64,000 bases of DNA from Pseudomonadota bacterium. GTDB taxonomy: Bacteria > Pseudomonadota > Gammaproteobacteria > Burkholderiales > Rhodocyclaceae. Under the pieces are notes generated by a model. That model saw only the letters and a program-made list of their open reading frames with translations. It had not been told where the DNA came from and ran no database searches. The DNA lies in NCBI GenBank assembly GCA_018240785.1, contig JAFEFC010000022.1, positions 101,697 to 165,696 on the forward strand. Direction: 5' to 3'. A program made the translations under genes and the position numbers. Shown piece after piece: positions 5,273-63,549 of the stretch (the stretch's first letter is position 1; the number at the start of each line of letters is the position of its first letter).

Positions 5273-5899
5273 TCCAAGCTCTACGTTCCGAAGGGCAACA
5301 CCGCCCAAGAAACGCTCACGCTGATGAACAGTAACGACCGGCTGAACATCAAGGCGATTCGCGCCCATTGGGACGACATCCGGCGTCTGGCCACCTCGAT
5401 CAAGCAAGGCACGGTGACGGCCTCGCTGATGCTGCGCAAACTCGGCCGCTATCCGCGCCAGAATGGCTTGGCCGTGGCGCTGCGCGAGATGGGCCGCATT
5501 GAGCGCACGCTGTTCATCGTCGACTGGCTGCAAAGCGCTGAACTGCGCCGCCGGCGTGCATGCCGGGCTGAACAAGGGCGAGGCCCGAAACGCGCTGGCC
5601 CGCGCCGTGTTCTTCAACCGGCTGGGCGAAATCCGCGACCGCAGTTTCGAGCAGCAGCGCTACCGGGCCAGCGGCCTCAACTCGGTGACGGCGGCCATCG
5701 TGCTCTGGAATACGGTTTACCTAGTACGGGCCGCCAATGCCCTGCGCGGCCAAGGCCAAGCCGTCGATGACACCCTGCTGCAGCACCTATCGCCGCTGGG
5801 CTGGAACACATCAATCTGACCGGCGATTACCTCTGGCGCAACAGTGTCAAGATCGGCGCGGGCAAGTTCAGGCCGCTTCGAACGCTGCAACCGGCCTGA
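5273..5899 (+). pseudogene. tnpA: Tn3-family transposase (TnpA) C-terminal remnant
   Basis: The last ~205 residues of a Tn3-family DDE transposase survive in three frames. The first block (to about 5555) contains [20 protein letters not shown] and ends at LQSAELRRR. After a frameshift the second contains [20 protein letters not shown] and [13 protein letters not shown] second shift near 5808, consistent with loss of one G in the codons for Gly-Trp-Glu, is followed by NLTGDYLW and the C-terminus ending at 5899. The N-terminal ~780 residues are absent and replaced by mgtC. No terminal inverted repeat is identifiable. The element is dead but marks the island border with rfbD. Confidence 0.88.
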
Positions 5900-8521: not shown

Positions 8522-8606
8522 GCGGGGATGGCGGAATTGGTAGACGCACTGGATTTAGGTTCCAGCGCCGCAAGGCGTGAGAGTTCGAGTCTCTTTCCCC
8601 GCACCA
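8522..8606 (+). tRNA. tRNA-Leu (anticodon UAG)
   Basis: The 85-base sequence folds as a long-variable-arm tRNA. The acceptor arm GCGGGGA (8522-8528) pairs with TCCCCGC (8596-8602), followed by A and an encoded CCA. The anticodon stem CTGGA/TCCAG encloses loop TTTAGGT, giving anticodon TAG (reads CUN). The T arm contains GTTCGAGTC. The following 266 bases hold no gene I can support. It sits between housekeeping sugar-nucleotide genes and the catabolic island. Confidence 0.97.
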
Positions 8607-21861: not shown

Positions 21862-22785
21862 ATGAAATTCGCACTGGCAACGCCCGCCCTCAACACCTAT
21901 CCGGCCGCGATGGCACCCTGGGAGCCGAAAGCCGGCGGCGCCGAGATCCTGCGCTACGCGCGCAAGGCGGATGCGCTGAGCTGGGACTGGCTGACCCTTC
22001 CCGAGCACATCGTGATGCCCACCGAGATGAAGGAGATGATGGGGCCGCGCTGGGCCGAAAGCATCGTCGCGGCGGCCACGCTGATGGGGGCGACGCAGCG
22101 CATCCACATGCTCACCTACATCCTTCCCCTGCCCTACCGGCACCCGCTGCTGCTGGCCAAGCAGATCGGCACCATGGAATTCCTGGCCGGCGGCCGCTTC
22201 ACGCTCGGTACCGCGGTCGGACATCTGGAAAAGGAGTTCGAGGCGCTCGGCATCCCCTTCCACAAGCGCGGTGCGATGACGGACGAATACCTCGCAGCCC
22301 TGAAGGAAGCGTGGACGTCCGACAACCCGCGCTTCGAAGGCGACTTCGTCAGCTTCAAGGACGTCACCATCGAGCCCAAGCCGGTGCAGAAGCCGCATCC
22401 GCCGATCTTCATCGGTGGCAACTCGCAACCGGCGATGCGCCGTGCCGCCGAGCACGGCGACGGCTGGATTCCCTGGCTCGTCACCAGCGAGGATCTGCCC
22501 GGCTGCATCGCCTACATGAAGAGCCTGCCGGCCTACGAGGCCAAGGCCGACCGCTTCGAGATCCTGGTCACGACGACTGCCTACAAGGTGGAGGACTACT
22601 CCCACGCCGAGGTCGGCAGTACGCAGATCGCGAGCGACCGCGACGGCGTGCTGCGCGAGATCGAGGCCCTGAGCAAGGCCGGCGCGACCTCGGTACAGGT
22701 CATGCCGCCGCGTTTCGAGACGCTCGACCAGAGCCTCGAGTGGATCGAATGGTACGACCAGGAAATCATCCCCCAATTCCGTTGA
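21862..22785 (+). CDS. LLM-class F420-type flavin/deazaflavin oxidoreductase
   Basis: A 307-residue luciferase-like monooxygenase-superfamily protein (TIM barrel). Family marks: LSWDWLTLPEHIVMPTEMKE, the MEFLAGGRFTLGTAVGHLEKEF segment, KPHPPIFIGGNSQPAMRRAA and GDGWIPW. The sequence is closest in style to the F420-dependent TIGR03619-like groups, which transfer hydride between F420 and alcohols, aldehydes or enoyl compounds; flavin-dependent members also exist. The F420 interpretation is strengthened by fbiC, cofC and npdG in the same island and by a Ddn-like gene. It sits between CoA-transferases and a crotonase, implying a CoA-ester or ring intermediate as substrate. Confidence 0.82.
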   Translation: MKFALATPALNTYPAAMAPWEPKAGGAEILRYARKADALSWDWLTLPEHIVMPTEMKEMMGPRWAESIVAAATLMGATQRIHMLTYILPLPYRHPLLLAKQIGTMEFLAGGRFTLGTAVGHLEKEFEALGIPFHKRGAMTDEYLAALKEAWTSDNPRFEGDFVSFKDVTIEPKPVQKPHPPIFIGGNSQPAMRRAAEHGDGWIPWLVTSEDLPGCIAYMKSLPAYEAKADRFEILVTTTAYKVEDYSHAEVGSTQIASDRDGVLREIEALSKAGATSVQVMPPRFETLDQSLEWIEWYDQEIIPQFR

Positions 22786-24405: not shown

Positions 24406-24425
24406 GTTCACTTGTATGAGTGATG
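24406..24425. promoter_or_regulatory. Candidate operator copy A, before Mo-hydroxylase operon
   Basis: An imperfect 20-bp palindrome GTTCACT-N6-AGTGATG, including a perfect TCACT/AGTGA pair with a 6-base spacer. Its centre is 88 bases before the start codon at 24504, nearly the same distance as copy B before the DUF1302 gene. It shares the GTGATGC core with the copies at 38142, 47844 and 59607. Confidence 0.5.
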
Positions 24426-24503
24426 CGCCTGCAGCATGCGCTGCCTATGATCGGCAGCATCTCGTCACCGCCCGACAGCCGGCCCGCCGCCAAGGATGAC
24501 CCC

Positions 24504-25379
24504 ATGAAACCGGCCCCTTTCGACTACCACGCTCCCGCCACCCTCGACGAGGCCGTCGCCCTGCTGACGCGCCTGGGCGACGAAGGCTGCGACGTCAAGA
24601 TCATCGCCGGCGGCCAGAGCCTGATGCCCATGCTCGCACTGCGCGTCGCGCGGCCCGAGGTCCTCGTCGACCTCGGCCGGCTGGAGGCGCTGGATTACAT
24701 CCGCGACGAAGGTGGCACGCTCGTCATCGGCGCCATGGCCAGCAAGCAGGCTGCAGCCGATTCCGACCTCGTCAGGCGCGCCCAGCCCCTGTTCCAGGCG
24801 GCGACCGAACTGGTCGGGCACCGCCAGATCCGCAACCGTGGCACCGTCGGCGGCTCCTTCGCCCACGCCGACCCGGCATCCGAATATCCCGCAGTGGCGC
24901 TCGTGCTCGACACCGAGTTCGAGGCGGTCGGCCCGGACGGGATGCGGACGATTCCCGCTGCCGATTTCTTCGTCACCTACATGACGACGAGCCTTGAGGC
25001 GAACGAGGTGCTCACCGCGGTGAAGTTCGCGCCTTTCGCGCCGCGGCGGCGCTGGGCGATCCAGGAATTCGCGCGGCGCAACGGCGATCTGGCGCTGGCG
25101 GGGGTTGCGGTCACCCTGGACATCGAGGCGGGCCTGTGCCGCGATGTCCGCATCGCCGCCTTCGGCGTCCAGGCCACGGCCGTGCGCCTGACCGCCGCCG
25201 AGCGCATGCTCGAGGGCCGCCCCGCCCAGCCGCAGCATTTCGAGGAAGCCGGCCGGGTCGCGGCAACGGCGCTGGACGACCCGATGGGCTGCATCCACGC
25301 CTCGCCCGACTACCGCCGCCACCTGGTCGGCGTCCTTGCCGCCCGCGCGCTCACCGAAGCCGCGGCGCGCCCGCAATGA
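24504..25379 (+). CDS. Molybdenum hydroxylase FAD subunit (CoxM/HcrB-like)
   Basis: A 291-residue FAD-binding subunit of the xanthine-oxidase family. The flavin motifs are IIAGGQSLMPMLALR and a RNRGTVGGSFAHADPASEYP segment. It carries electrons from the iron-sulfur subunit to the acceptor. ATG 24504 has AAGGATG just upstream. Its stop overlaps an ATG, but the better start of the next gene is 23 bases downstream. Gene order FAD - 2Fe2S - Mo matches coxMSL. It lacks the extra 4Fe-4S loop of 4-hydroxybenzoyl-CoA reductase HcrB, which argues against that reductive enzyme. Confidence 0.9.
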   Translation: MKPAPFDYHAPATLDEAVALLTRLGDEGCDVKIIAGGQSLMPMLALRVARPEVLVDLGRLEALDYIRDEGGTLVIGAMASKQAAADSDLVRRAQPLFQAATELVGHRQIRNRGTVGGSFAHADPASEYPAVALVLDTEFEAVGPDGMRTIPAADFFVTYMTTSLEANEVLTAVKFAPFAPRRRWAIQEFARRNGDLALAGVAVTLDIEAGLCRDVRIAAFGVQATAVRLTAAERMLEGRPAQPQHFEEAGRVAATALDDPMGCIHASPDYRRHLVGVLAARALTEAAARPQ

Positions 25380-25402
25380 CCCTTTTGCCCGAGGAAAGAC
25401 CC

Positions 25403-25897
25403 ATGTCGAGCAAGCAGCGCATCGAAGTCCGGGTGAACGGCATCCGGCACGTCCGCGAGGTGGAGCCTCGCCTCACCTTGGCCGATTTCCTGCGCCACGA
25501 CCTTGGCCTGGGTGGCACCCACGTCGGCTGCGAGCACGGCATCTGTGGTGCGTGCACGGTGCTGATCGACGATCGCAGCGCGCGCGCCTGCCTCACCCTG
25601 GCGGTCCAGGCCGACGGACACGAGGTGGCCACCGTCGAGAGCCTGCGCGCGCCCGAGAGCGGCGCGCTTCATCCCATCCAGCAGGCTTTCGTCGATGCGC
25701 ATGGCCTGCAGTGCGGTTTCTGCACGCCCGGCTTCATGATGACGACGCTCGAGCTGCTGCGCGGAAACCCCGACCCGACCGAAGAACAGATCAAGGAAGC
25801 GCTGGGCGGCAACCTGTGCCGCTGCACCGGTTACCAGTCGATCCTCGAGTCGGTGAAGCTCGCCGCGCAGCGGATGAAGCCGGGCGCTCCGGCCTGA
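25403..25897 (+). CDS. Molybdenum hydroxylase [2Fe-2S] subunit (CoxS-like)
   Basis: A 164-residue subunit with two [2Fe-2S] clusters. The plant-ferredoxin-type cluster is bound by [14 protein letters not shown] plus a later Cys (ARACL); the second by [13 protein letters not shown] and NLCRCTGY in the C-terminal helical domain. It passes electrons from the Mo cofactor to FAD. I choose ATG 25403, preceded by GAGGAAAG, over ATG 25376, which overlaps the previous stop codon and has no site. It is followed by the large subunit after 42 bases. Confidence 0.93.
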
Positions 25898-25939
25898 TCC
25901 GCGCTCGGGCCTCACCGCAACCTGCAAGGCGACCACACC

Positions 25940-28384
25940 ATGGCAATCGAGATTCCCACCCTGCCCGAGCAACTGCCCAACGATGCGCCGCGCCATGTCG
26001 GCAAGGCGGTGAACCGCGTCGAAGACCCGGCGCTCGTGTCCGGCACCGTCGAATTCATCGACAACTGCGTCCTGCCCGGCATGCTGCACTGCGCGATCCT
26101 GCGCAGCCCGCATCCCCACGCCCGCATCGTGTCGGTCGACACCAGCGCTGCACTGGCCGCCGACGGCGTCGTCGCGGTGCTCACGGGAGAAGACGTCAGG
26201 CGCTGGTGCGATCCCGTCTTCACTGCCCCCGAGGGTTGGGGCAACTACTGCATGGCGGTAGACAAGGTGCGCTTCGTCGGCGAGCCGGTTGCCGCCGTCG
26301 CCGCCTCCAGCCGCTACCTTGCCGAGGACGCGCTCGAGCTCATCGAGGTCGAGTACGAGCTGCTGACGCCGGTCGCCACACCCGAACAGGCGATGGCGTC
26401 CGGTGCGCCGCTGGTGTTCGAGGAGCGCGGCACCAATGTGATGCTCGCGCGCAAGTACGAATGGGGCGAGGTCGATCGCGTGTTCGCCGAAGCCGACCAC
26501 GTCGTCAGCCGCCGCTTCCGCTGGAACCGAGTGGGCGCCAACCCGACCGAGACCTTCGGCTGCATCTGCCAGTGGGATCTCGCCGACGGCACGCTCACCT
26601 GCCGCGGCTCCTACCAGACTCCGCGCTTCATGGGCATCGGCCGCGCGGGTTCGCTGCGGCTGCCGGCGAACCGGGTGCGCATCATCGCCCAGCCGATGGG
26701 CGGTGGTTTCGGCGGCAAGGGCGGCCCGCGCGGTACCGACATCGCGGCGCTGCTGTCGCGCAAGGCCGGTGGCCGGCCGGTGAAGTACATCGAGGACCGC
26801 ATGGAGTATCTCCTCGCCGGGGGCGGGCAGTCGTGGGACCGCTACTACGATGCCGCCCTTGCGGTGAAGGCCGATGGCACGGTGACCGGCTTCCGCGTGC
26901 GCCTGGTCGACAACCAGGGCGCAGGTGCCGAAGGCTACGGCACCATCTCGGCGGCCAAGCCGCTCGCCGCCTTCACCGGCAACTATCGCATCGAGGCCGC
27001 CGCCTACGACCTCACCCTGGTCGCCACCAACCGCGCGCCAAGCTATCCCTACCGCGGCTACGGCCCTCCGCCCCACAACCTGGTGCTCGAGTCGCTGATG
27101 GACTGCACCGCGCGCGAACTGCAGATCGACCCGGCGGAATTGCGCCGGCGCAACTACATCCGCCCGGAACAGTTCCCCTACACCGTCCCGAGCGGCAACG
27201 AATACGACAGCGGCAACTACGGCCAGGTGCTCGAGCGCGTCCTCGCGCTGGCGGATTATCCGGCGCTGCGGGCGCGTCAGGCCGCGGCGCGAGCCGAGGG
27301 GCGGCTGCTCGGCATCAGCGTCGTCAATACGGTGGAGCCGGGCGTGTTCGACTGGAATGCCTACGCCACGGTCGGCGTGCCCGGCATCGGCGTTCCCGAG
27401 GGCGTGAAGGTCGCCCTCGACGTCTTCGGCAACGTCACCGTCGCGGTGGGCTTCAACCTTCAGGGTCAGGGGCAATTCACCGTTGCCGCGCAGGTAGTCG
27501 CCGATTACCTCGGCGTCGACATGGCACAGGTCAGGATCAGCACGGCTGCGTCCGACGTCGCCATGCCCCACTTCGGCCAGGGCGGCAGCCGGCTCGGCGT
27601 GGCGGTCACCGGCGCCATCCTGGGCGCCTGTGAAAAGCTCAAGGCCATCTTCACCACCGTCGCCGCGCATGTGCTGCAGCTCCCGGCTGACGATCTCGTC
27701 CTGCGCAACGGGCGCATCCAGCGCCGCGACGCGCCCGCCCACGGCATGTCGCTGGCGGAGATCGCCGGGCTCATGCTGACCCGCAGCGATCTGCTGCCAG
27801 CCGGCGTCGAGCCCTGCCCGGAAGCCACCTATGTGTGGACCGCACCCAATCGCAACGCACCCGACGACCAGGGGCGTTGCCGCAGCTACCTGACCGCCGC
27901 CTACGCGACGCATGTTGCGCTCGTCGAGATCGACCGCGATACCGGCCGTGTCGACATCCTCGACTACAGCATCGTGGATGACTGCGGCACCCGCCTGAAT
28001 CCGGCCAACGTCGAGGGGCAGTTGCAGGGAGGCGTCGCCCAGGGCGTCGGCGCCGCGCTGTATGAGGAATACGTCTACGACGCGCAATGCCAGCCGCTGG
28101 TCAGCACCTTCGTGGACTATCTGATGCCCACCATCCACGAAGTGCCGATGACGCGCAAGGATCATTTCGTCACGCCGTCGCCCGTCGCCCCGCTGGGTGC
28201 GAAGGGCTGCGGCGAAGGCGCCATGCACACCACGCCGGCAGCCATCCTGTGCGCGATCAACGATGCGCTCGCCCCGCTGGGCAAGGAACTGCTGGAGACA
28301 CCCGCCTCGCCCCATCGCGTGTGGAAGCTGCTGCAGGAGGCGGGCAGTGCAATCGCCAATGGACCAACAGGAACACGAACTTGA
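25940..28384 (+). CDS. Molybdenum hydroxylase large subunit (CoxL/XdhB-like)
   Basis: An 814-residue Mo-cofactor subunit. The Moco motif AQPMGGGFGGKGG is near residue 250, and the catalytic Glu is Glu759 in KGCGEGAMHTTPAA. The active-site loop reads SYPYRGYGPPPHNLV rather than the AYRCSFR of form I CO dehydrogenase, so it does not oxidise CO; the usual form II YRGAGRPE is also altered. It most likely hydroxylates an organic ring or side-chain carbon with water. The complex probably needs XdhC (45595) for sulfuration and CoxG (47926) for membrane attachment, both in the island. Its stop overlaps the next start (TTGA). Confidence 0.92.
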   Translation: MAIEIPTLPEQLPNDAPRHVGKAVNRVEDPALVSGTVEFIDNCVLPGMLHCAILRSPHPHARIVSVDTSAALAADGVVAVLTGEDVRRWCDPVFTAPEGWGNYCMAVDKVRFVGEPVAAVAASSRYLAEDALELIEVEYELLTPVATPEQAMASGAPLVFEERGTNVMLARKYEWGEVDRVFAEADHVVSRRFRWNRVGANPTETFGCICQWDLADGTLTCRGSYQTPRFMGIGRAGSLRLPANRVRIIAQPMGGGFGGKGGPRGTDIAALLSRKAGGRPVKYIEDRMEYLLAGGGQSWDRYYDAALAVKADGTVTGFRVRLVDNQGAGAEGYGTISAAKPLAAFTGNYRIEAAAYDLTLVATNRAPSYPYRGYGPPPHNLVLESLMDCTARELQIDPAELRRRNYIRPEQFPYTVPSGNEYDSGNYGQVLERVLALADYPALRARQAAARAEGRLLGISVVNTVEPGVFDWNAYATVGVPGIGVPEGVKVALDVFGNVTVAVGFNLQGQGQFTVAAQVVADYLGVDMAQVRISTAASDVAMPHFGQGGSRLGVAVTGAILGACEKLKAIFTTVAAHVLQLPADDLVLRNGRIQRRDAPAHGMSLAEIAGLMLTRSDLLPAGVEPCPEATYVWTAPNRNAPDDQGRCRSYLTAAYATHVALVEIDRDTGRVDILDYSIVDDCGTRLNPANVEGQLQGGVAQGVGAALYEEYVYDAQCQPLVSTFVDYLMPTIHEVPMTRKDHFVTPSPVAPLGAKGCGEGAMHTTPAAILCAINDALAPLGKELLETPASPHRVWKLLQEAGSAIANGPTGTRT

Positions 28385-41526: not shown

Positions 41527-43524
41527 CTACACCAGCATGCCGATGGCTGCGCCGTGGCGCGTCGCCTCCGCCAGCCGGCGCGGCACCCACGCCGAACCGG
41601 CGAGGAAGACCCTGGCGATGCCGCCGTCCTCCTGCAGGCGGTAGTAGAGGTCGGGCTGCTGCACCGAGCCATATACCAGCACCACGCTGTCGAAGCCTCC
41701 CTCGCGATAGGACTGGTCGCCCCACGACGACACGAACTCGAGCGCGTCCGGCCGCACCGCCTTCAGGATCCGGTTCGGGTGCACCTTCACGCCGCATTTC
41801 TCCATGCGCTTGAGGACCATCCCGATCGAATAGCGGGCGACTTCCGTCGCCAGGTGCACCGACTTGTGGAAGACCTCCACCTGCGCGCCCTGCTCGGCAA
41901 GGTACTCGGCCACGCACGGCGTCTGGTAGTAGTCCTCCTGCGACACCAGCGCCACGCGCTTACCGGTGAGCGCCTTGCCGCGCATCACCTCCCAGCCCTG
42001 CACCACGTTCGGCGCGTCGATGCCGGGCACATCGTCGGGAAGGCGCGGCAGCGCGCCGGTGGCGACGACCACCGCGTCCGGCTGCAGTGCCTTGATCGCC
42101 GCCACCTCGGCGCGCGTCTGCAGGCGGACGTCGACGCCGAGGCGTGCGAGCGCGTTCTCCTCGAAGTACACCTGGTCCTCGAAGGAATCGCGCCCCGGGG
42201 CTCGGGCGGCGATCAGCAACTGGCCGCCGAGCCGGCGGCCCTGCTCCAGCAGCGTCACCCGGTGGCCGCGCATGGCCGCCACCCGGGCCGCCTCGCATCC
42301 GGCCGCGCCACCGCCGACCACCACCACATGGCCGGGCGTTTCAGCCACGCGGAAATTCGCCTGCCAGTGCAGCTCGTTGCCGATCTGCGGGTTGATCGAA
42401 CAGGTCGGCGCATACGGCAGCGTCACCGGTTCGGAAGCTTCGTCGATGCATCTCGTGCAGGCGATGCAGCGGCGGATCTCGCCGAGCCTGCCCTCGCGCG
42501 CCTTGTTGGCGAACTCGGGATCGGCAATGCCTGCCCGCACCATGCCCACCAGATCGCAGAATCCCCCCCTGAGCAGTTCCTCGGCGAGCACCGGATCGTT
42601 GATGCGCCCGGTGAACAGCACGGCGACCTTGCGCTCGAGTTCGGCCAGGTCGGAACGCGCCGCCTTGCCGAACTCGCGGTATTCCGCATGCGGATGGTAG
42701 GACGACGGCACATAGGACGGCGCACCCCAGCAGTGCCCCACGTCCAGATCGACGAAATCGAGCAGCCCCGTTTCGGCGATGTAGTAGAGCATTTCGCGCA
42801 GTTCGAGGTTGCCGTAACCGCCGTCGCGGGACTCCTGCCCGTTCACGCGGATGCCGAGCGCGAGCTTGTCGCCGACCCGCGCCCGCACGCGCCGGAGCGC
42901 CTCGACGACGAAGCGCACGCGCTCCTTCGGACCGCCACCCCAGTGGTCGGTACGGCGGTTGGTCACCGGGGACAGGAAGCTGTAGCCGACTGTCTCATGC
43001 GCGCAATGGATCTCGACGCCGTCGGCGCCGCTGTTCAACGCCGCCTCGGCGGCGTCCGCATAGCCGTCGAGCAGGAACTGGATCTCCTTCTCGCCCAGCA
43101 CGTGCGGCGTGTAGTCCTGCGCCCCCACCACCGGCACCGCCGAGGGCGCCCACAGCGCGTTGAGGTGGGTCAGTTGCACCACGACCACCGCCCCGCTTGC
43201 ATGGATCTCGTCGACGAAGCGCGTCCAGCCCTCCATGAAAGCCGGGTTCTGATGAGCGGCGAAACGGGAACCGAAGCCGCCGCGCAACGACACTTCGTCC
43301 GGCGCCCCCTCGGGAAAGGGCAGGTTCAGCAGCCAGGTCTCGCTGCCGATCCACCCCGTGCCACCGCGCGCCTTGGCGCCGTGGTGGGCGATGAAGTGCT
43401 CGTCGATCAGACCGGGCGCACGCGACGAATTGATGGTATTCGTGGTCTCGCAGATGCGGTTCGGCACCCGCATGGGGCCGATCTGCAGCGGCGAGAAAAG
43501 ATGTTCGAACTTCACGTTGCTCAT
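41527..43524 (-). CDS. Fe-S old-yellow-enzyme family reductase (FadH/2-enoate reductase-like)
   Basis: A 665-residue NADH:flavin oxidoreductase. An N-terminal FMN barrel (about 1-340) is followed by the [4Fe-4S] motif CIACTRCIDE ... CSINP (about 345-372) and a C-terminal FAD/NADH domain (GGGAAGCEAARVAAMRGHRV near 400). This is the architecture of 2,4-dienoyl-CoA reductase FadH, 2-enoate reductase and bile-acid enzymes BaiCD/BaiH: NADH reduces an activated C=C bond. Barrel residues IHCAHETVGYSFLSPVTNRR correspond to the FadH H-G-Y-L-x-Q-F region but are changed, so substrate scope may differ. It has a strong GGAGGAGAGG site and its own terminator. Confidence 0.87.
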   Translation of the reverse strand: MSNVKFEHLFSPLQIGPMRVPNRICETTNTINSSRAPGLIDEHFIAHHGAKARGGTGWIGSETWLLNLPFPEGAPDEVSLRGGFGSRFAAHQNPAFMEGWTRFVDEIHASGAVVVVQLTHLNALWAPSAVPVVGAQDYTPHVLGEKEIQFLLDGYADAAEAALNSGADGVEIHCAHETVGYSFLSPVTNRRTDHWGGGPKERVRFVVEALRRVRARVGDKLALGIRVNGQESRDGGYGNLELREMLYYIAETGLLDFVDLDVGHCWGAPSYVPSSYHPHAEYREFGKAARSDLAELERKVAVLFTGRINDPVLAEELLRGGFCDLVGMVRAGIADPEFANKAREGRLGEIRRCIACTRCIDEASEPVTLPYAPTCSINPQIGNELHWQANFRVAETPGHVVVVGGGAAGCEAARVAAMRGHRVTLLEQGRRLGGQLLIAARAPGRDSFEDQVYFEENALARLGVDVRLQTRAEVAAIKALQPDAVVVATGALPRLPDDVPGIDAPNVVQGWEVMRGKALTGKRVALVSQEDYYQTPCVAEYLAEQGAQVEVFHKSVHLATEVARYSIGMVLKRMEKCGVKVHPNRILKAVRPDALEFVSSWGDQSYREGGFDSVVLVYGSVQQPDLYYRLQEDGGIARVFLAGSAWVPRRLAEATRHGAAIGMLV

Positions 43525-43596: not shown

Positions 43597-44115
43597 TCAG
43601 GCCGGCCCGGTCGGGGACAGGATCACGATGCCGAAAGGTCGGTCGGTCTGCGCCTGAAAGTAGCCCCAGGTGGGGAACAGCGCGACCAGGCGCGGCCACA
43701 GCACCTTGCGCTCTTCATCCGTGGCCTCGCGCGCGACTGCGCTCATGCGCCGGCGGTCGCACTGCACCCAGCACTGCGGAGTCGCCGTCACGTTCAGGAA
43801 CCAGGCCGGAGGCTGGTCGTAGCCGGCCAGCGACGCGACCACGACCATGTTGTCGCCGTCCTGCAGGAACACCAGCGGCGTGGTGCGCTTGTCTCCCGAC
43901 TTGCGCCCGATCATCGTCAGCAGCAGCGTCGGCAGGCCGGAAGGCGAACCCGCCCCGGTGGACCATCCGTCCGGGTTCGCCAGGTAGCGCTCGACGTCGG
44001 CCTTCGCGTCGCCGCGGATACGCTCCAGGGAGGCCGTCGCGGCCTTGAGCCCCTCCCAGTCCTGATCGGACATGTAGTCCGGCTTCACCATCTTGTCGCG
44101 ATCGTGTGTCGTCAT
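43597..44115 (-). CDS. Ddn-like deazaflavin (F420)-dependent nitroreductase family protein
   Basis: A 172-residue split-beta-barrel protein of the deazaflavin-dependent nitroreductase family (DUF385; Ddn of mycobacteria). Marks are LLLTMIGRKSGDKRTTPLVF, DNMVVVASLAGYDQPPAWFL and CDRRRMSAVAREATDEERKV. Members use F420H2 to reduce enones, nitroaromatics or quinones. F420 synthesis genes in the same window make this cofactor plausible. ATG 44115 is chosen since homologues start shortly before the DWEGLKAA helix; a longer form exists. It lies 72 bases upstream of the Fe-S reductase gene in the same direction, suggesting successive double-bond reductions. Confidence 0.84.
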   Translation of the reverse strand: MTTHDRDKMVKPDYMSDQDWEGLKAATASLERIRGDAKADVERYLANPDGWSTGAGSPSGLPTLLLTMIGRKSGDKRTTPLVFLQDGDNMVVVASLAGYDQPPAWFLNVTATPQCWVQCDRRRMSAVAREATDEERKVLWPRLVALFPTWGYFQAQTDRPFGIVILSPTGPA

Positions 44116-44296
44116 GTTTACCCGTGCTCCAGCCAGGTTGTTGAAGAGATGCCCCGCATACAGTCTAGTGTCGGGCTCCATCGCGCTCGGCCATCAACCA
44201 TTTCCGATGCGGCCTTTGGCATTCCAATTCGGGCCACGGGCGGCATCGCTGGGCGGCCCCTCCGGCTCCCCCTCGCGGCGTGCGCGGGCGCGAGCT

Positions 44297-45487: not shown

Positions 45488-45594
45488 CGCAGGCGCAGGC
45501 GGCATGGAATAGTCCGGCTGTCGTGAGTCCGGACACCGGGTATGGAGCCGGGCGATGGCGCGGTCGATGCGCGCCCGACACGCGGAGAGCGACC

Positions 45595-46788
45595 ATGAAC
45601 GAAATCCAGCAGATCACGAAGGCATTCAACGAGGCGCTCGCCCGCGGCGAAGCCGCCGCGCTGGCGACCGTCGTGGCGGTGAGCGGTTCGGCCTATCGCC
45701 GTCCGGGAGCGCGCATGCTCGTGTCGGACGACGGCCATCGGGTCGGTTCGGTCAGCGGCGGCTGCCTCGAGCGCGACGTCGTCCGCCACGCAACCCTCGC
45801 CATCAAGAACGGCGAGACGGCCCTGCGCCTGTACGACTCGCTCGACGAGGATCTCGCCGACGGTCTCGCCCTCGGCTGCAACGGCGCCGTGCTGGTGCTG
45901 ATCGAACCGCCCAACGCCAACGTCCGCCACCAGATCCGCTTCCAGGGCGAATGCCTGCAGCGGCGTCGACGCGGAGCGATCGCCACCGTCTATGCCTCGC
46001 ACGACGCGTGCGTCGCCGAGCCGGGCGGGCGGCTGTCGCAGGTCGAGGGCGGCGAGACTTCCTGCTCGGGCATTGGCGCCGGCCCCCTGCGCGAGGCGCT
46101 CGAAGCCGCCGTCACCGACGCGCTGCGCCATGGGCGTGGCGGCGACTGGTCGTTCGCGACCGGCCACGGCACCGTGTCGGCCTTCATCGAAGTGCTCGCG
46201 CCGCCCCTGCGGGTCATGGTGTTCGGCGCAGGGCAGGACGTCCATCCGCTGGTCGAATTCGGCCGCCAACTGGGCTGGTGCATGCAGGTTGTCGCCAACG
46301 CCGGCGGCTTCGAGCTGCGTCAGCGCTTCCGCGCTGCCGAGACGCTGTACTTCGGTTCCCCGGGTGATGCCGTCGATGCGCTCAAGCCGGACGGTGACAC
46401 CGTCGCCCTGCTGATGAGCCACAACTTTCCGCTCGACGTCACGGCGTTTCGCGCCCTCGCCCCGGTCCGGCCGCGCTACATCGGCCTCCTGGGGCCGCGA
46501 CATCGCGCACATCGCCTGCTGGAAGAAGCGCAGGCTCAGGGAACCGTGGTGGATGAAGCCTTGCGTGCATCCGTTTTCGGCCCGGTAGGGCTCGACATCG
46601 GGGCGGAAACACCCGCCGAGGTAGCGCTGGCGATCGTCGCCGAAATCACCGCGACCCTTCACGACCGCAATGGCACATCGGCACGCCTGCGCACGGCCGC
46701 CCTGCACAAGGGCAGCACCCCGCTCGGCGATCTGCGCGCCACCGGCGGCGTCGGCGCAGACACCGTCTGCGGCCTGACCACCGCCTGA
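45595..46788 (+). CDS. XdhC/CoxI family molybdoenzyme maturation protein
   Basis: A 397-residue XdhC/CoxI protein. The N-terminal domain carries ALATVVAVSGSAYRRPGARM and SGGCLERDVVRHA with the conserved Cys; the C-terminal Rossmann domain has VMVFGAGQDVHPLVEFGRQL and RYIGLLGPRHRAHRL. XdhC binds molybdenum cofactor and promotes its sulfuration and insertion into xanthine-oxidase-type hydroxylases. It would serve the hydroxylase at 24.5-28.4 kb, 17 kb away. ATG 45595 has GGAGAG upstream. It ends in a hairpin shared with the convergent LLM gene. Confidence 0.92.
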   Translation: MNEIQQITKAFNEALARGEAAALATVVAVSGSAYRRPGARMLVSDDGHRVGSVSGGCLERDVVRHATLAIKNGETALRLYDSLDEDLADGLALGCNGAVLVLIEPPNANVRHQIRFQGECLQRRRRGAIATVYASHDACVAEPGGRLSQVEGGETSCSGIGAGPLREALEAAVTDALRHGRGGDWSFATGHGTVSAFIEVLAPPLRVMVFGAGQDVHPLVEFGRQLGWCMQVVANAGGFELRQRFRAAETLYFGSPGDAVDALKPDGDTVALLMSHNFPLDVTAFRALAPVRPRYIGLLGPRHRAHRLLEEAQAQGTVVDEALRASVFGPVGLDIGAETPAEVALAIVAEITATLHDRNGTSARLRTAALHKGSTPLGDLRATGGVGADTVCGLTTA

Positions 46789-46834: not shown

Positions 46835-47707
46835 TCAGTCCATGCGCGAGATGACTTCGTCGCCGAAGCGGCGAAGGGCATCGAGCTGCCCTGCGAGGTC
46901 CTCGGCCCCCACCTCCCTGCCCCATGGCACCAGCCCCGCATGCGTCAGGCCGAGGTCGCGCAGGCGGCGGAAGTCGTCCAGCGTGCGGGCGCTGAAATCG
47001 ATGCCGTGGATCTGGTAATCCTCGCGCCCCAGCGTGCCGAATTCCGCACGGAAGGCGTTGAGCTGGTCGACAAGCGCCTTCAGGGTGGCGGCATCGGTGT
47101 TCGCCGACGCCCAGCCGTCACCCAGGCGCGCTGCCCGCCGCAACGCCGGCTTGCTGTGGCCGCCCACCAGGATGGGGACGGGTTGCGCAGGCACCGGCCG
47201 CATGCGCAGCGGGCCGAAATCGAAATGCTTGCCGTGATGCTCGAAGAATTCGCCGCTCATCGCCGCGCGCAGGATCTCGATGCACTCATCCATGATCTCG
47301 CCGCGCTTGTCGAAGTCCACGCCGTTGTAGACGAAATCCTCCTTCCACGGGCTGAGGCCGGCGCCGAGGCTGATCCTGCCGCCCGACAGCGCCGCCAGGG
47401 AAGTCAGCGACTTGGCGAGGATGAGGGGCTGTCGCACCGGCACCTTGAGCACTCCGGGGTAGAAGCGCAGCCGGGTGGTGACCGCCGCCATCGACGCCAT
47501 GGCGACGAAGGGTTCGATGAATTCGGAATGCTCGAGGTAATCCCGGATCGCATCGGTTTCGGCGTACGGGTAATCGGACGCCGTCGCACGTGGAAAAAAC
47601 AGGCTGTCGGGCATCGACAGGCTGTCCCAGCCGGCGTTCTCGGCCGCGCGCGCCAGATCCATGTAATTGCGGTAATGGGTGAAGCCAAGTTGCAGTACGA
47701 ACTTCAT
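46835..47707 (-). CDS. LLM-class F420-type oxidoreductase
   Basis: A 290-residue luciferase-like protein, shorter than the one at 21.9 kb. Family segments are AENAGWDSLSMPDSLFF, SLTSLAALSGGRISLGAGLS, PVPILVGGHSKPALRRAARL and GDGWASAN. It falls among F420-dependent reductases/dehydrogenases by these motifs; FMN use cannot be ruled out. It diverges from coxG across 218 bases that contain operator copy D. No CoA-specific features are visible. Together with the other LLM gene and the Ddn-like gene it makes three candidate users of F420 in the island. Confidence 0.8.
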   Translation of the reverse strand: MKFVLQLGFTHYRNYMDLARAAENAGWDSLSMPDSLFFPRATASDYPYAETDAIRDYLEHSEFIEPFVAMASMAAVTTRLRFYPGVLKVPVRQPLILAKSLTSLAALSGGRISLGAGLSPWKEDFVYNGVDFDKRGEIMDECIEILRAAMSGEFFEHHGKHFDFGPLRMRPVPAQPVPILVGGHSKPALRRAARLGDGWASANTDAATLKALVDQLNAFRAEFGTLGREDYQIHGIDFSARTLDDFRRLRDLGLTHAGLVPWGREVGAEDLAGQLDALRRFGDEVISRMD

Positions 47708-58207: not shown

Positions 58208-59368
58208 TCAGGCCAGCGGCGCCACGCCGCTCAGCAGCAGGCGCATCAACTCGGTCTGGCGCGTGACGCCGGTCTTGGCGAATACGCCGCGCAACTGGCA
58301 GCGCGCGGTGTTGCGGCTGATGCCGAGTTCCTCGGATGCGTCTTCCACGGTGAGTCCTTCCAGCAGCTTGAGCACCAGGGTGGACTCGGCCGGCGTGAGG
58401 CCGTAGAGGCGCTTGAGGATGCTCAGCGATGCCTGCGACTTCTGCTCGACGTCGCGGATGATGACGATCACTGCAGGCCGGTCGGACGATTCCGACCACT
58501 CCGTCACCGGTGCCGTGCGGACCACGATGCCCAGGTTTGGCCGGCCCGACTTGCGGCTCAGGGACATGCCCGACACGAGATGCGGACTGGGCGAGCACTC
58601 GCTCCTGATCGCCCGGTCGATCAGCGCATGCATTTCCTTGTTCTCGCTGCCGAATGCGGCATGCAGCGTTCCGTTGATCGTGGACAGCCCGTCGCGTTCG
58701 GCCAGGATCGCGGATGCGGCGTCGTTCATGCGCAGGATCTTGCCCTTCTTGTCGAGGATCACTGCCCCCACGGACAGTCGTTCGAGCGTGCCGGCGTAAA
58801 GCGTGCGTTCGGCTTCGGTCACATCCAGCAGGCTGCGCAGCTTCACCGCACTCTTGATGTGCGGCACCAGCAACTGGCAGAGCGCACGGTCGGCGTCGTC
58901 GAACGGCGCACCCGTGGACGAGCGGCTCGCCCGGAAGCGGCAGCTCGGTTCGTCGCCATCGCCGATGTCCGCGCCGAGGTAGTAGCGGATTCCGAGCGGC
59001 GCGAGAAATTCCTGGAAGATCGCGCTGCGCAGCCAGTCCTCCTCGCGGACGACCTCGTCCACCGTCACCACACGGTCCACCGGCAGATTCACGAACGGAT
59101 CGACGGCATAGAAGAAGGTGTTGTAGGCCTCGGCGATCTCCGGGCGCGCCTGGCCGGCGAATACCACCTGCCAGGACCGGTCCGGCGACGGCGAACGCAG
59201 GATCATCGACACGTAATTGGCGTCGAGGCGCTGGCGCAGGGCCTCCAGGAAGCCGGTCCAGGGTGTCGGTTCGCGCGTGCCGTCATAGATCTGGTGCACC
59301 AGGCCGTCGTACTCGACAAGGCTCAGTCCGGATTTCCGGAACAGCGCGTCGAAATCCGTTCCACTCAT
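58208..59368 (-). CDS. LuxR-family regulator with PAS-like sensor
   Basis: A 386-residue regulator. The N-terminal ~190 residues form a probable sensor, followed by a PAS-like part (ERLSVGAVILDKKGKILRMN) and a C-terminal LuxR helix-turn-helix: LTPAESTLVLKLLEGLTVED, ASEELGISRNTARCQLRGVF. There is no phospho-receiver domain, so a small-molecule signal is likely. LuxR-type regulators such as TeiR control steroid degradation in other betaproteobacteria. ATG 59368 with GAGGAAA upstream is chosen over further starts. It diverges from npdG, and operator copy E lies between, which makes it the best candidate for binding the island's palindrome. Confidence 0.9.
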   Translation of the reverse strand: MSGTDFDALFRKSGLSLVEYDGLVHQIYDGTREPTPWTGFLEALRQRLDANYVSMILRSPSPDRSWQVVFAGQARPEIAEAYNTFFYAVDPFVNLPVDRVVTVDEVVREEDWLRSAIFQEFLAPLGIRYYLGADIGDGDEPSCRFRASRSSTGAPFDDADRALCQLLVPHIKSAVKLRSLLDVTEAERTLYAGTLERLSVGAVILDKKGKILRMNDAASAILAERDGLSTINGTLHAAFGSENKEMHALIDRAIRSECSPSPHLVSGMSLSRKSGRPNLGIVVRTAPVTEWSESSDRPAVIVIIRDVEQKSQASLSILKRLYGLTPAESTLVLKLLEGLTVEDASEELGISRNTARCQLRGVFAKTGVTRQTELMRLLLSGVAPLA

Positions 59369-59606
59369 GAGCAGGTTTCCTCGCAATGCTTCACTTTCGC
59401 GACACTCCGCCAGCAGTCGGGTACAAGCAGGGGAGGCATCGGCACTCGCGCCGGAACGCGCAACCGGACGAAGGAGCATAGGCGCCGATGCAGCGCGCCT
59501 CCTTGACCTTTCTCAACGCGCAGTGCCGACGGGATGCGCACGAAGGGTCCTGCCGCCGCAGATGCCTTCGTCGCCGCCGGCCCGCTGTCCACAAATGACT
59601 TCCGCC

Positions 59607-59739: not shown

Positions 59740-60411
59740 ATGGATCAAGCAATCGCCGTCGTCGGCGGCACGGGAAATCTGGGGGCCGCACTCGCCCGCC
59801 GCTGGGCCAAGGCCGGAAAGTCCGTGATCATCGGCTCGCGCCAGGCCGAAAAGGCGCACGAAGCGGCCGCCCGTCTCGGCGCCGAACTGGGCGTGACCGT
59901 GCGTTCGGCCAGCAACGTCGACGCCGCGCGCGCAGCCGACATCGTCGTGGTGACGGTGCCCTTTGCCTCCCAGGCCGGCGTGTTGGAGGAAATCGGTCCG
60001 GTGGTCCAGGGCAAGCTCGTGATCGACACCACCGTTCCGCTGGTGCCGCCCAAGGTTGCACGCGTGCAGCTTCCGCCGGAAGGCAGCGCCGCGCAGCGCG
60101 CACAACATTTGCTCGGCAGCGACGTGCGCCTGGTATCCGCCTTTCACAACGTGGCTGCGCACAAGCTCGCGACCGACCAGCCGGTGGACTGCGACGTGCT
60201 CGTGTTTGGCGACGACAAGGCCGCCCGCAGCGTCGCCGTCGAGCTGGCGGACTGTGCCGGACTGCGCGGACTGCACGCCGGCGCGCTGGCGAACTCCGCC
60301 GCCGCCGAAGCGCTGACCTCGATCCTGATCTTCATGAACAAGACCTACCGCATCGATGGCGCGGGCATCCGCATCACCGGCCAGCTCGATTTCAGCGCGT
60401 CGGCCGACTGA
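59740..60411 (+). CDS. npdG: F420:NADPH oxidoreductase
   Basis: A 223-residue NADPH-dependent F420 reductase (Fno/NpdG). The Rossmann loop is AVVGGTGNLGAALARRW, followed by VIIGSR, whose Ser-Arg binds the NADP 2'-phosphate. Further family segments are ADIVVVTVPFASQ, VIDTTVPLVPPKV and LVSAFHNVAAHKL, which form the F420 pocket. It passes hydride between NADPH and F420, supplying F420H2 to reductases. ATG 59740 gives MDQAIAVVGG with AAGGGG upstream; in-frame starts earlier add non-homologous sequence. It heads the npdG-cofC-fbiC unit. Confidence 0.9.
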   Translation: MDQAIAVVGGTGNLGAALARRWAKAGKSVIIGSRQAEKAHEAAARLGAELGVTVRSASNVDAARAADIVVVTVPFASQAGVLEEIGPVVQGKLVIDTTVPLVPPKVARVQLPPEGSAAQRAQHLLGSDVRLVSAFHNVAAHKLATDQPVDCDVLVFGDDKAARSVAVELADCAGLRGLHAGALANSAAAEALTSILIFMNKTYRIDGAGIRITGQLDFSASAD

Positions 60412-60511
60412 TCATGTCCCCCCGGGATTCGCCCGCTGTCCGGGCACACCTGGCCGGCAGGATCTCGGGCGCCGCAGGCGCGCGGCAGTTTCCGACTGGA
60501 GGAGCAGGAAG

Positions 60512-61189
60512 ATGAGCTGCTGGGCCTTGCTCGCATTGAAACCGCCACCTCTGGGCAAGACGCGGCTATCCGGGCTGCTGCCCGGAGCCGAGCGCGAACA
60601 TCTTGTCCTGGAGATGTTCGACCGCGTGATCAACGCCCTGCAGTCCGCGCGGGAGATCGACCACATCGCCGTCGTCACGCCCGAACCCGGCCTGCTGCCG
60701 CGCGGCGTGGTCGCGGTGGCCGACCCCGGCGCCGGTCTCAACCACGCACTCGACGCCGGCCGCCGCGAGATCACCGCGCGGGGTGCGCGCGAGCTGCTGG
60801 TGCTGCATGCCGACCTGCCCACCCTCACCAGCCGCGAGGTGGACGTCTTCGTGCGCCAGGGCCGCCGCACCGGACTCGCCCTTGCACCCGACCACCACCG
60901 CCAGGGCACCAACGGCCTCGTGCTCTCGCTGCCGAGCGCATTCGGCTTCCGCTTCGGCACTGCCAGTCTTGCGCTGCACCTCGGAGAGGCGCGGCGCTGC
61001 GGGCTCGATGCGACGCTCAGCGTTCTCCCCGGCTTTGCCCATGACATCGACGAGCCGGCGGACCTGCAACACCTTCCCCGTAGTAGCAGCGGCTGCCGCC
61101 GCGCGCCCCTTCCAGCACCCCGGAGTACACCGAGATGGACAGCAAGCCCGAAGATCTTCTTGCCCTTGCACTCGACGGAGCGCGGCTGA
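60512..61189 (+). CDS. cofC: Phospholactate/phosphoenolpyruvate guanylyltransferase, F420 synthesis
   Basis: A 225-residue CofC/FbiD nucleotidyltransferase. It joins GTP to 2-phospholactate, PEP or 3-phosphoglycerate, making the activated side chain that CofD attaches to the deazaflavin Fo. Segments: ALLALKPPPLGKTRLSGLLP with the catalytic Lys region, LVLHADLPTLTSREV, APDHHRQGTNGLVLSLP and a C-terminal PGFAHDIDEPADLQHL. The strong GGAGGAGCAGG site fixes ATG 60512. The last 18 codons overlap fbiC by 55 bases and encode a Pro/Ser/Arg-rich tail absent from typical members. Which three-carbon substrate it uses cannot be told. Confidence 0.9.
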   Translation: MSCWALLALKPPPLGKTRLSGLLPGAEREHLVLEMFDRVINALQSAREIDHIAVVTPEPGLLPRGVVAVADPGAGLNHALDAGRREITARGARELLVLHADLPTLTSREVDVFVRQGRRTGLALAPDHHRQGTNGLVLSLPSAFGFRFGTASLALHLGEARRCGLDATLSVLPGFAHDIDEPADLQHLPRSSSGCRRAPLPAPRSTPRWTASPKIFLPLHSTERG

Positions 61190-63549
61190 GCGACGCGCAG
61201 ATCCACGTCATCGCCGCCGGCGCAGCCACCGACGCATTGCTGGCCTGTGCCGAAAGGCTGACCTTGAAGGGACACGGCCACCTGGTCGGCCACTCGCGCA
61301 AGGTCTTCATCCCGGTGACGCGCATGTGCCGCAACGCCTGCGGTTATTGCACCTTCGTCGCCCCGCCGCGCTCCGGCGCGGCTGTGTTCATGCACGAAGA
61401 GGAAGTGCTGCAGATCGCTCGCGCCGGTGCCTCCGCCGGTTGTCGCGAAGCCCTGTTCACCCTCGGCGAGAAGCCCGAGCTGCGCCATCGCGCCGCACGC
61501 GATGCGCTGGATGCGATGGGCCATGCGAGCACCATCGCCTACGTGGCAGCCCTCGCCGAGCGTGTCTTCCGCGAAACCGGCTTGCTGCCGCACATCAATG
61601 CCGGCAACCTCGACGCCGACGAATTCGCGTTGCTGCGCCCGCATGCCGCGTCCATGGGGATCATGCTGGAGAGTGCTGCGGAACGTCTGGGCGAACGCGG
61701 GCAGGCACACTGGAACTGCCCCGACAAGGCGCCCGCTGCGCGCCTTGCCACCCTCGAGGCTGCTGGCAGGCAGCGCGTTGCGATGACCAGCGGCATCCTC
61801 GTCGGCATCGGCGAAACGCCTGCCGAACGAGTCGAGGCGCTGCTTGCCCTGCGCGCCGTGCATGAGCGCCACGGCAACCTGCAGGAAGTCATCGTGCAGA
61901 ATTTCCGCGCCAAGCCGCGCACGCGCATGGCTCACGCTGCCGAGCCGGGCGTGGCGGAGCACGCGCGCGCGATCGCGATGGCGCGCATCGTCTTCGGTGC
62001 GCAGATGTCCATCCAAGCGCCGCCCAACCTGCGCCCCGGCGCACTCGACGCGCTGATTGCCGCCGGTGTGAACGACTGGGGCGGGATTTCGCCGGTCACG
62101 ATCGATCACGTCAATCCCGAGGCGGCATGGCCGGAACTCGAGCAGCTTGCGCAGGAAACGCGTCGATGCGGCCGCCAGCTCGCCGAAAGACTGGCGATCG
62201 TTCCCGCCTTCGCCCGCGAGGCCAGCCGCTGGACCGAAGGCGACATCCGCCGGATCGTGCTCCGCAGTGCCGACGCGGCAGGCTGGGTCCGCGAAGACGA
62301 GTGGCTGGCCGGGGCGGGAATGAAGCCCGCCGAGCACCTCGCCCAGCTCGTCACCACCGCGTCGCGGCAGCAGGCGAGTCCCGCCATCGCAAGGACGCTC
62401 GCACGCATCGCGGCCGGGATCACACCCGACGAAGACGAACTCGCGCATCTCTTCACCGCGCGCGGCGGCGATTTCGCTGCCATCGTGGGCGCTGCCGACA
62501 CGCTCCGTGCCACGGTGGTCGGCGATGCGGTGTCCTATGTGAATAACTGCAACATCAACTACACGAACATCTGCCAGCATCGCTGCGGTTTCTGCGCGTT
62601 CGCCAAGAGCCACGCCGCCAGCACCATGCGCGGACCGGCCTACACCCTGGATGCCGATGAAGTGGCGCAGCGGGCTCGCGAGGCGTGGGACAGGGGCGCG
62701 CGCGAAGTCTGCATGCAGGGCGGGATCCATCCGCATTACGACGGCGACACCTACCTCGCCCTGACGCGCGCGGTGAGGGCGGCGCTGCCCGCCATGCACA
62801 TCCATGCCTTTTCGCCGCTGGAAGTCCTGCACGGCGCCCGCTCGCTCGGCCTGCCGGTTGCCGACTATCTCGGTCGCCTGCGCGACGCCGGACTGGGCTC
62901 GCTGCCCGGCACCGCTGCCGAGATCCTGGACGACGAGGTACGGGCGATCATCTGCGCCGACAAGCTCGACACCGCCGAGTGGCTCGATGTCATGAGGGCT
63001 GCGCATCAGCTCGGGATACGGAGCACGGCGACGATCATGTTCGGCCACGTCGACGGAGCCGTGCATTGGGCCCGCCACCTGCTGCACATTCGCGGGCTGC
63101 AGGCGGAGACGGGCGGCTTCACCGAATTCGTTCCGCTACCCTTCGTGCACATGGAATCGCCGCTGTGGCACAAGGGCCGCGCGCGCTCGGGGCCTTCACT
63201 GCGCGAAGCGATCCTCATGCATGCGGTGCCGCGCCTGGTGTTCGGCAACCTGCTGCCCAACATCCAGACATCATGGGTGAAGATGGGACGGGAAGGCGCA
63301 GCCCTGTGTCTGCGCGCTGGCGCCAACGACCTGGGCGGCACGCTGATGTACGAATCGATCACGCGCTCGGCCGGCGGCATCAACGGCGAGCTGATGAGCG
63401 ACGACGACATGCGCGCGATCGCCGCCCGGGCCGGCCGCCCCTTGCGTCGGCGCACGACCACTTACGGCCCGGTGCCCGACCCGGTGGAGGATTCATCGAT
63501 CGCGGTGCCGACGGTGGATAGGCACGCCGGCCAGGTCGTGGGATGTTGA
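61135..63549 (+). CDS. fbiC: Fo synthase, fused CofG-CofH radical SAM protein
   Basis: An 804-residue fusion that makes the deazaflavin Fo (7,8-didemethyl-8-hydroxy-5-deazariboflavin) from a ribityl-diaminouracil and tyrosine using two SAM radicals. The CofG half comes first, with radical-SAM cysteines C65-x3-C69-x2-C72 (CRNACGYC). The CofH half follows from about residue 440, with C480-x3-C484-x2-C487 (CQHRCGFC). Both clusters are intact. Length and order match actinobacterial FbiC rather than the separate archaeal genes. The start lies inside cofC. It is the commitment step of F420 synthesis, so its presence in a degradative island is strong evidence that F420 is used. Confidence 0.95.
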   Translation: MDSKPEDLLALALDGARLSDAQIHVIAAGAATDALLACAERLTLKGHGHLVGHSRKVFIPVTRMCRNACGYCTFVAPPRSGAAVFMHEEEVLQIARAGASAGCREALFTLGEKPELRHRAARDALDAMGHASTIAYVAALAERVFRETGLLPHINAGNLDADEFALLRPHAASMGIMLESAAERLGERGQAHWNCPDKAPAARLATLEAAGRQRVAMTSGILVGIGETPAERVEALLALRAVHERHGNLQEVIVQNFRAKPRTRMAHAAEPGVAEHARAIAMARIVFGAQMSIQAPPNLRPGALDALIAAGVNDWGGISPVTIDHVNPEAAWPELEQLAQETRRCGRQLAERLAIVPAFAREASRWTEGDIRRIVLRSADAAGWVREDEWLAGAGMKPAEHLAQLVTTASRQQASPAIARTLARIAAGITPDEDELAHLFTARGGDFAAIVGAADTLRATVVGDAVSYVNNCNINYTNICQHRCGFCAFAKSHAASTMRGPAYTLDADEVAQRAREAWDRGAREVCMQGGIHPHYDGDTYLALTRAVRAALPAMHIHAFSPLEVLHGARSLGLPVADYLGRLRDAGLGSLPGTAAEILDDEVRAIICADKLDTAEWLDVMRAAHQLGIRSTATIMFGHVDGAVHWARHLLHIRGLQAETGGFTEFVPLPFVHMESPLWHKGRARSGPSLREAILMHAVPRLVFGNLLPNIQTSWVKMGREGAALCLRAGANDLGGTLMYESITRSAGGINGELMSDDDMRAIAARAGRPLRRRTTTYGPVPDPVEDSSIAVPTVDRHAGQVVGC

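Follow-up and report, generated by a model that had tools for sequence, protein, structure and literature searches.

The anaerobic androgen (2,3-seco) pathway of denitrifying bacteria is known from gene clusters carrying atcABC, which have been described in Thauera terpenica 58Eu, Thauera sp. GDN1, Steroidobacter and Sterolibacterium denitrificans. Anaerobic testosterone degradation has been reported for 58Eu and GDN1; of 26 Thauera genomes, those of 58Eu, GDN1 and T. butanivorans NBRC 103042 were reported to carry atcABC, and its expression was androgen-induced in GDN1 (PMC9980454). The cofactor F420 occurs 0 times in the main text of the androgen-pathway papers PMC9980454 and PMC5554518. In the available text of PMC6678751 it appears only in a figure legend, which places cofC, cofD and cofE beside ACS3 and a steroid delta-isomerase in S. 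denitrificans (SEDNCHOL_10763-10772). F420 synthesis itself is already established in betaproteobacteria, and as of 2021 the only F420H2-dependent reductases to have been tested came from Actinobacteria (PMC8498797). Here we analyse a 64,000-base stretch of DNA (the window), the final part of contig C14 (165,696 bases) in a Thauera genome (4.71 Mb, completeness 99.99%, contamination 0.59%), in which three F420 genes, npdG2, cofC2 and fbiC2, stand beside a large CoA-ester degradation island.

Our reading, to which we assign a probability of roughly 70%, is that the island encodes the anaerobic androgen pathway of Thauera and that the npdG2-cofC2-fbiC2 set, an incomplete second F420 module, is tied to the island and both supplies and recharges F420 for its reductases. 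This reading is based on observed gene families, on the completeness of the F420 pathway in the genome, on the identity of the cluster and on a conserved association across genomes. Its parts are known, and the novelty lies in connecting an F420 module with the anaerobic breakdown of androgens. A sequence-only reading of the window had suggested that a locus making, reducing and apparently spending F420 would be a distinct, little-described system; betaproteobacterial F420 synthesis was already known (PMC8498797), and what is added here is the probable assignment of the island to the androgen pathway. Beyond the S. denitrificans legend, no link between F420 and anaerobic steroid degradation was found among the open-licence matches listed (title, abstract start and term counts); most subscription papers lie outside that set, and priority is not settled.

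The nearest F420 loci differ from the window in content and setting. The S. denitrificans cof genes are known from annotation, whereas the Thauera module is an npdG-cofC-fbiC set without cofD or cofE. The proteobacterial npdG-cofE-cofD-cofC-fbiC operon carries the two genes that are absent from the window copy, which for its part lies beside a catabolic island. Aromatoleum aromaticum EbN1 plasmid 2 (L164) holds the same five F420 genes in a different order. On that plasmid, which is typed as conjugative, a long cofH-annotated gene (fbiC by its length), npdG, cofE, cofD and cofC lie amid several IS elements, and a pyridoxamine-oxidase-family gene precedes them. The F420 variant of Mycetohabitans (Paraburkholderia) rhizoxinica, made from 3-phosphoglycerate (3-PG), is likewise a case of betaproteobacterial F420 synthesis, with a different CofC residue from that of Thauera (PMC8764529).

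The probable androgen island and its F420 module

The island is most likely an anaerobic androgen degradation cluster because three lines of sequence and literature evidence converge on it: the published atcA primers match, the locus is collinear with that of T. terpenica 58Eu, and androgen growth has been reported for such relatives (PMC9980454). The three-subunit xanthine-oxidase-type Mo/FAD/Fe-S enzyme at 24420-28384 is matched by the degenerate atcA primers at 26042 (1 mismatch) and 27188-27214 (0 mismatches). The matches span 1173 bp against a reported product of about 1100-1200 bp (PMC5554518), and shuffled sequence gives chance expectations of 0.02 and 0.00 for them. The same pair matches seven related clusters, all of those whose atcA was compared. 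AtcA is 87% identical to the T. terpenica protein, and in 58Eu the island is collinear from the thiolase at 10910, where the compared stretch begins, through to the F420 module. Monoterpene degradation, considered as the purpose of the island in view of the isolation of T. terpenica on monoterpenes, was dropped after the atcA primers matched.

Table 1. Genes of the window discussed in the text, with the match or observation behind each call
Feature	Position	Strand	Basis
CoA-ester degradation island: thiolases, acyl-CoA dehydrogenases, eight class III CoA-transferases, ETF, amidohydrolases, DUF1302/DUF1329	8873-58111	.	
LLM1, luciferase-like oxidoreductase	21862-22785	+	TIGR03619 above cut-off
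FAD subunit of AtcABC molybdoenzyme	24420-25379	+	PF00941/PF03450
[2Fe-2S] subunit of AtcABC molybdoenzyme	25370-25897 (start chosen by us)	+	PF01799/PF00111
atcA, Mo subunit of 1-testosterone hydratase/dehydrogenase	25940-28384	+	published primers; MoCoBD domains
Reductase of the old-yellow-enzyme/FadH kind; the Ddn-like gene lies immediately upstream	41527-43524	-	PF00724 above cut-off
Ddn-like FDOR-A reductase, likely F420H2 consumer (sequence and predicted model)	43597-44181	-	PF04075 and TIGR00026 above cut-off
XdhC/CoxI family protein	45523-46788	+	
LLM2, luciferase-like oxidoreductase	46835-47707	-	TIGR03619 above cut-off
Putative LuxR-type regulator, divergent from npdG2	58208-59479	-	GerE and related matches, all below cut-off
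npdG2, NADPH:F420 reductase	59740-60411	+	TIGR01915 200.8 bits, cut-off 149.8
cofC2, guanylyltransferase, predicted substrate 2-phospholactate or phosphoenolpyruvate	60512-61189	+	TIGR03552 141.3, cut-off 105
fbiC2, fused CofG-CofH FO synthase	61135-63549	+	NF006687 (bifunctional CofGH) 1043.6, cut-off 1018

The sequence-only reading had recognised npdG, cofC and a fused fbiC with both radical-SAM motifs, and this assignment held up when the three genes were graded against curated NCBIfam equivalog cut-offs. All three pass, fbiC2 also exceeding the cut-offs of TIGR03550 and TIGR03551, and both CX3CX2C motifs are present in the FbiC2 translation (CRNACGYC and CQHRCGFC). The npdG2 start is preceded by GAAGGGG, and cofC2, which most likely begins at 60512 (a start that we chose), overlaps fbiC2 by 55 bases. 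The module is no chance reading of the letters, because a window-type fbiC recurs in 5 of 29 Thauera genomes with npdG and cofC adjoining it in all four other carriers read; FbiC2 is 78% identical to the FbiC of T. terpenica 58Eu. The two LLM proteins and the Ddn-like reductase of the island, also named in that earlier reading, are borne out by their family matches (Table 1). Its placement of the module at the end of a cluster of about 50 kb is right as to the position beside the island, and the "end" is partly an assembly edge, that of contig C14.

The earlier reading also spoke of F420 being made within the one locus, and as stated this did not survive. No cofD or cofE was found at the window locus, and their sole matches in the genome, one each, lie on another contig (C55) in a complete npdG-cofE-cofD-cofC-fbiC operon with the same gene set, order and fusion as the proteobacterial operon; the presence of both genes elsewhere in the genome, on which the proposal of F420 synthesis depended, is thereby confirmed. 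The CofE model matches only the 3 archaeal F420 makers among 14 control genomes. The CofD Pfam model also matches 10 of the 14, E. coli included, and the C55 call is specific because the gene sits directly after cofE. Window and C55 copies share 66% (FbiC), 70% (NpdG) and 43% (CofC) identity over the matched length, and by these comparisons the window module is a second, partial and paralogous F420 copy, which would therefore rely on CofD and CofE from C55. Contamination of the assembly through C55 was considered and is unlikely: the gene order of F420 operon, two genes that we take from their protein starts to be cysDN, and LLM3 (a TIGR03617 protein above cut-off, 8 kb past the operon) recurs in Thauera that also carry the window-type copy. 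The beginning of C55 (L004 1-4200) has a G+C content of 0.53 against 0.69 in the next 15 kb and holds four ORFs of unrecognised kind before the F420 operon; it is possibly a mobile remnant.

The kind of F420 can be predicted from CofC. A Ser is the diagnostic residue of 3-PG-activating CofC (PMC8764529). Aligned to 7p97 and 6bwg, CofC1 and CofC2 carry Gly and not Ser at the Mrhiz S162 position, and Gly together with the Mg-binding Asp is kept in 10 of 10 aligned CofC sequences. Ordinary F420 is therefore predicted, and synthesis of the 3PG variant by the second module was rejected on the basis of this residue. Because the best match in the genome to the FbiB C-terminal nitroreductase domain (TIGR03553) reaches 27.1 bits against a cut-off of 249.55, both 2-phospholactate and phosphoenolpyruvate remain candidate CofC substrates.

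The surroundings of the island add several observations. The LuxR-type gene stays with the catabolic cluster in relatives, and with npdG2 in T. butanivorans. We take the XdhC/CoxI family protein to act in maturation of the molybdoenzyme. The final gene at the contig end (63650-64000, minus strand), presumably the C-terminal part of an ETF-quinone oxidoreductase judging from its motif, has an in-frame stop upstream of its cysteine motif. A tRNA-Leu gene (8522-8606), besides which Rfam gave nothing, stands just ahead of the first gene of the cluster, with a Tn3-type transposase fragment (5463-5819) 3 kb to its left. Integration at this site would be marked by a repeat of the tRNA-Leu 3' end, and neither the window nor the two 20-kb stretches searched gave a second copy of it. 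A plasmid home for the island was also considered: in a set of 72,556 plasmid records, all matches to AtcA (E limit 1e-100) and to the Ddn-like protein fall below 60% identity, and FbiC relatives occur on 74 of these records.

Conservation of the association across genomes

Co-occurrence of fbiC with this cluster in relatives, which the sequence-only reading had put forward as a check, proved strong. Within Thauera, fbiC is found in 9 of 29 genomes (E <= 1e-100) and both copies in 5, the second copy of T. terpenica 58Eu being split over two contigs and the two copies of T. butanivorans NBRC 103042 lying on one contig (79% and 66% identity). AtcA and window-type fbiC mark the same 5 genomes, 58Eu and T. 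butanivorans included. Across 297 genomes of the family, fbiC occurs in 27, Ddn-like matches in 20 (19 of them with fbiC), LLM1 in 17 and AtcA (at least 70% identity) in 17. The AtcA, LLM1 and Ddn orthologues (at least 60% identity for Ddn) mark the same 17 genomes, 16 of which carry fbiC. Three AtcA matches at 38-39% (G034, G098 and G145, without fbiC) were regarded as probable paralogues and not counted among the 17. G030, G050 and G095, whose best Ddn match is 33-41%, also stand outside the 17 and are included in the 19 of 20. These searches scored only the first few candidates per genome, and copy numbers are therefore lower bounds; G282, G110 and G155 have at least three fbiC copies each, and G282 shows three F420 loci with differing neighbours. 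Fisher's test of AtcA-type genes against fbiC gives 1.8e-18, a value that ignores kinship and linkage, and at genus level fbiC is present in 6 of the 7 AtcA genera against 11 of 68 genera overall (P 2.8e-5). CofE and CofD are each found in 15 of the 17 AtcA genomes besides the window's own, T. butanivorans included. A class-wide AtcA search at E 1e-200 returned only the genome itself among 369.

The F420 genes are also physically close to the cluster, although their place in it varies. In the 14 genomes examined for cluster surroundings (a set that leaves aside G114, G157, G158 and G187), they lie within the cluster or no more than about 10 kb away in 11: beyond the LuxR-type gene in G000 and T. 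terpenica 58Eu (G028), on the opposite side of the cluster in G024 and G027, in the stretch from LLM2 to CoxG in G282, G216, G072 and G270 (as a complete operon in G216), adjoining LLM2 and the pair of Ddn-like and old-yellow-enzyme (OYE) genes in G263, as cofD beside LLM2 in G140, and as npdG and fbiC beside ECH2 in G055. In the complete F420 operon of G024 (L104 4647-6479), a transporter-like gene that we take to be SLC13-like stands between cofD and cofC, where the window's genome has no room for one.

The history of FbiC suggests that this proximity arose more than once. In a midpoint-rooted FbiC tree of 50 rows, Thauera fbiC2 (5 rows), the cluster copies of genus g45 (4 rows) and the g28 copies form separate clades, with the g28 copies (G055, G114, G157 and G187) across the deepest split. 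Because the cluster copies fall in FbiC lineages split at 100/100 support, we interpret them as the outcome of two or more independent events that joined F420 genes to this pathway; replacement of the genes could also produce such a tree.

Several observations weigh against a strict tie between F420 and the pathway. Linkage on the island and kinship among the genomes inflate the co-occurrence. In G110 and G155 the 17-18 kb examined around Ddn showed no F420 gene, and T. butanivorans (G003) has atcA and fbiC2 on different contigs. G072, a single contig, has atcA and npdG-cofC-fbiC and no match to cofD or cofE; a plasmid may be missing from that assembly, or the organism may make FO only or draw on some other source. 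G158 (81% complete) has atcA, LLM1 and Ddn, with no fbiC, cofD or cofE at the thresholds used. Finally, 11 of the 27 fbiC genomes lack AtcA, and F420 therefore has other uses in the family. With these points counted, we consider the association real, conserved and informative.

Candidate consumers of reduced F420 and competing explanations

The Ddn-like enzyme likely uses F420, judging from its sequence and predicted structure. It matches mycobacterial Ddn at 2.5e-27, and the best 16 fold matches of its predicted model (mean pLDDT 77, residues 1-26 unreliable) all bear titles of FDOR-A or F420 reductases (E 5.5e-13 to 1.8e-9), several of which, again by title, were solved with F420. Split barrels that bind heme or FMN begin at 2.5e-5, the first being a heme protein, and FDOR-B F420 proteins follow further down. 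The Thauera protein resembles mycobacterial Ddn/FDOR-A in sequence and predicted fold, and differs in an N-terminal part about 50 residues longer than that of Rv1558 and in its setting within the steroid cluster of a denitrifying bacterium.

The FDOR enzymes of mycobacteria, of which A1 is one of the broadest, act on the alkene in 2-cyclohexen-1-one and similar compounds and reduce it (PMC5449967). By our own chemical comparison, ring A of testosterone resembles this group. The consulted sections of PMC6678751 and PMC6208644 identify the delta4-reductase through its activity or an annotation and do not tie it to a gene of such a cluster. We propose a Ddn step, with low confidence, because the pathway needs the delta4 double bond removed ahead of AtcABC, mycobacterial FDOR enzymes reduce alkenes of this kind, and those sections assign the reaction to no gene of the cluster. 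In the resulting scheme, FbiC2 would make FO, CofC2 would activate 2-phospholactate or phosphoenolpyruvate and not 3-PG, CofD and CofE from the C55 operon would complete F420, and NpdG2 would reduce it with NADPH. The Ddn-like reductase, and perhaps LLM1 and LLM2, would then use F420H2 to reduce an enone in one of the steroid intermediates. The favoured target, held with low confidence, would be the ring-A double bond lost between 1-dehydrotestosterone and 1-testosterone, right before AtcABC. We infer that the module raises F420 supply while the pathway is in use, that these reductases use F420, and what reaction they carry out. A wider claim, which we put forward tentatively and at less than even odds, is that anaerobic androgen degradation in Rhodocyclales depends on F420, with F420H2 as the hydride donor for the ring-A enone before AtcABC through the Ddn-like enzyme, and with the module as a substrate-linked cofactor supply that was joined to the pathway independently in different lineages.

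One competing explanation, which we consider less likely than our reading, is that the OYE-like enzyme reduces ring A with NAD(P)H, leaving F420H2 and Ddn an accessory part such as quinone reduction or the detoxification of stray enones. Denitratisoma extracts reduce ADD to 1-AD, for which NADH is given as the explanation (PMC7448270), and an OYE-like gene lies beside Ddn; reduction of ring A without F420 is therefore possible, which counts against our reading. The best NCBIfam matches of the OYE-like protein are TIGR03997, the mycofactocin OYE model (448.8 bits, cut-off 793), and then BaiCD (304.6, cut-off 825), both below cut-off, and FDOR enzymes are fastest with quinones (PMC5449967). Nevertheless, the Ddn and OYE genes are adjacent in 13 of 13 clusters and F420 genes accompany the cluster in 11 of the 14 genomes, more conservation than one would look for in an accessory function.

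A further alternative, to which we give the same weight, is that the LLM proteins are FMN enzymes, in which case F420 would be consumed by Ddn alone or by no protein of the cluster; for the LLM proteins F420 and FMN are both candidate cofactors. The nearest solved sequences of LLM1 are FMN-dependent monooxygenases, with F420 enzymes lower in the list, a further point against our reading; its AlphaFold model (pLDDT 45.5) is too poor for fold comparison, and the "F420-dependent" label of TIGR03619 is a family annotation. Against this stand the TIGR03619 scores of LLM1 and LLM2, 205.6 and 196.6 with a cut-off of 166.9, and the presence of LLM1 in the same genomes as Ddn, nearly all of them with fbiC.

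A hitchhiking origin of the second module, as a superfluous copy that came to lie beside the island without a pathway-specific role, would accord with the paralogy of the copies, with Thauera fbiC2 being sister to fbiC1, with the full operon elsewhere in the genome and with the different cluster side in G024 and G027, yet we think it distinctly unlikely, the module being present in all 5 AtcA-bearing Thauera of the 29 and in no other Thauera searched, and F420 genes from other FbiC lineages associating with the same cluster in other genera.

Taken together, the reading of the locus as an androgen cluster with a partial F420 module suggests that a known anaerobic pathway may use a rare redox cofactor, F420, not yet tested in it, and makes the Ddn-OYE pair a candidate for the ketosteroid delta4-reductase of the pathway. 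The locus offers a concrete role for F420 in cultured relatives, T. terpenica 58Eu and Thauera sp. GDN1, within a pathway that matters for hormones in sewage and in the gut.

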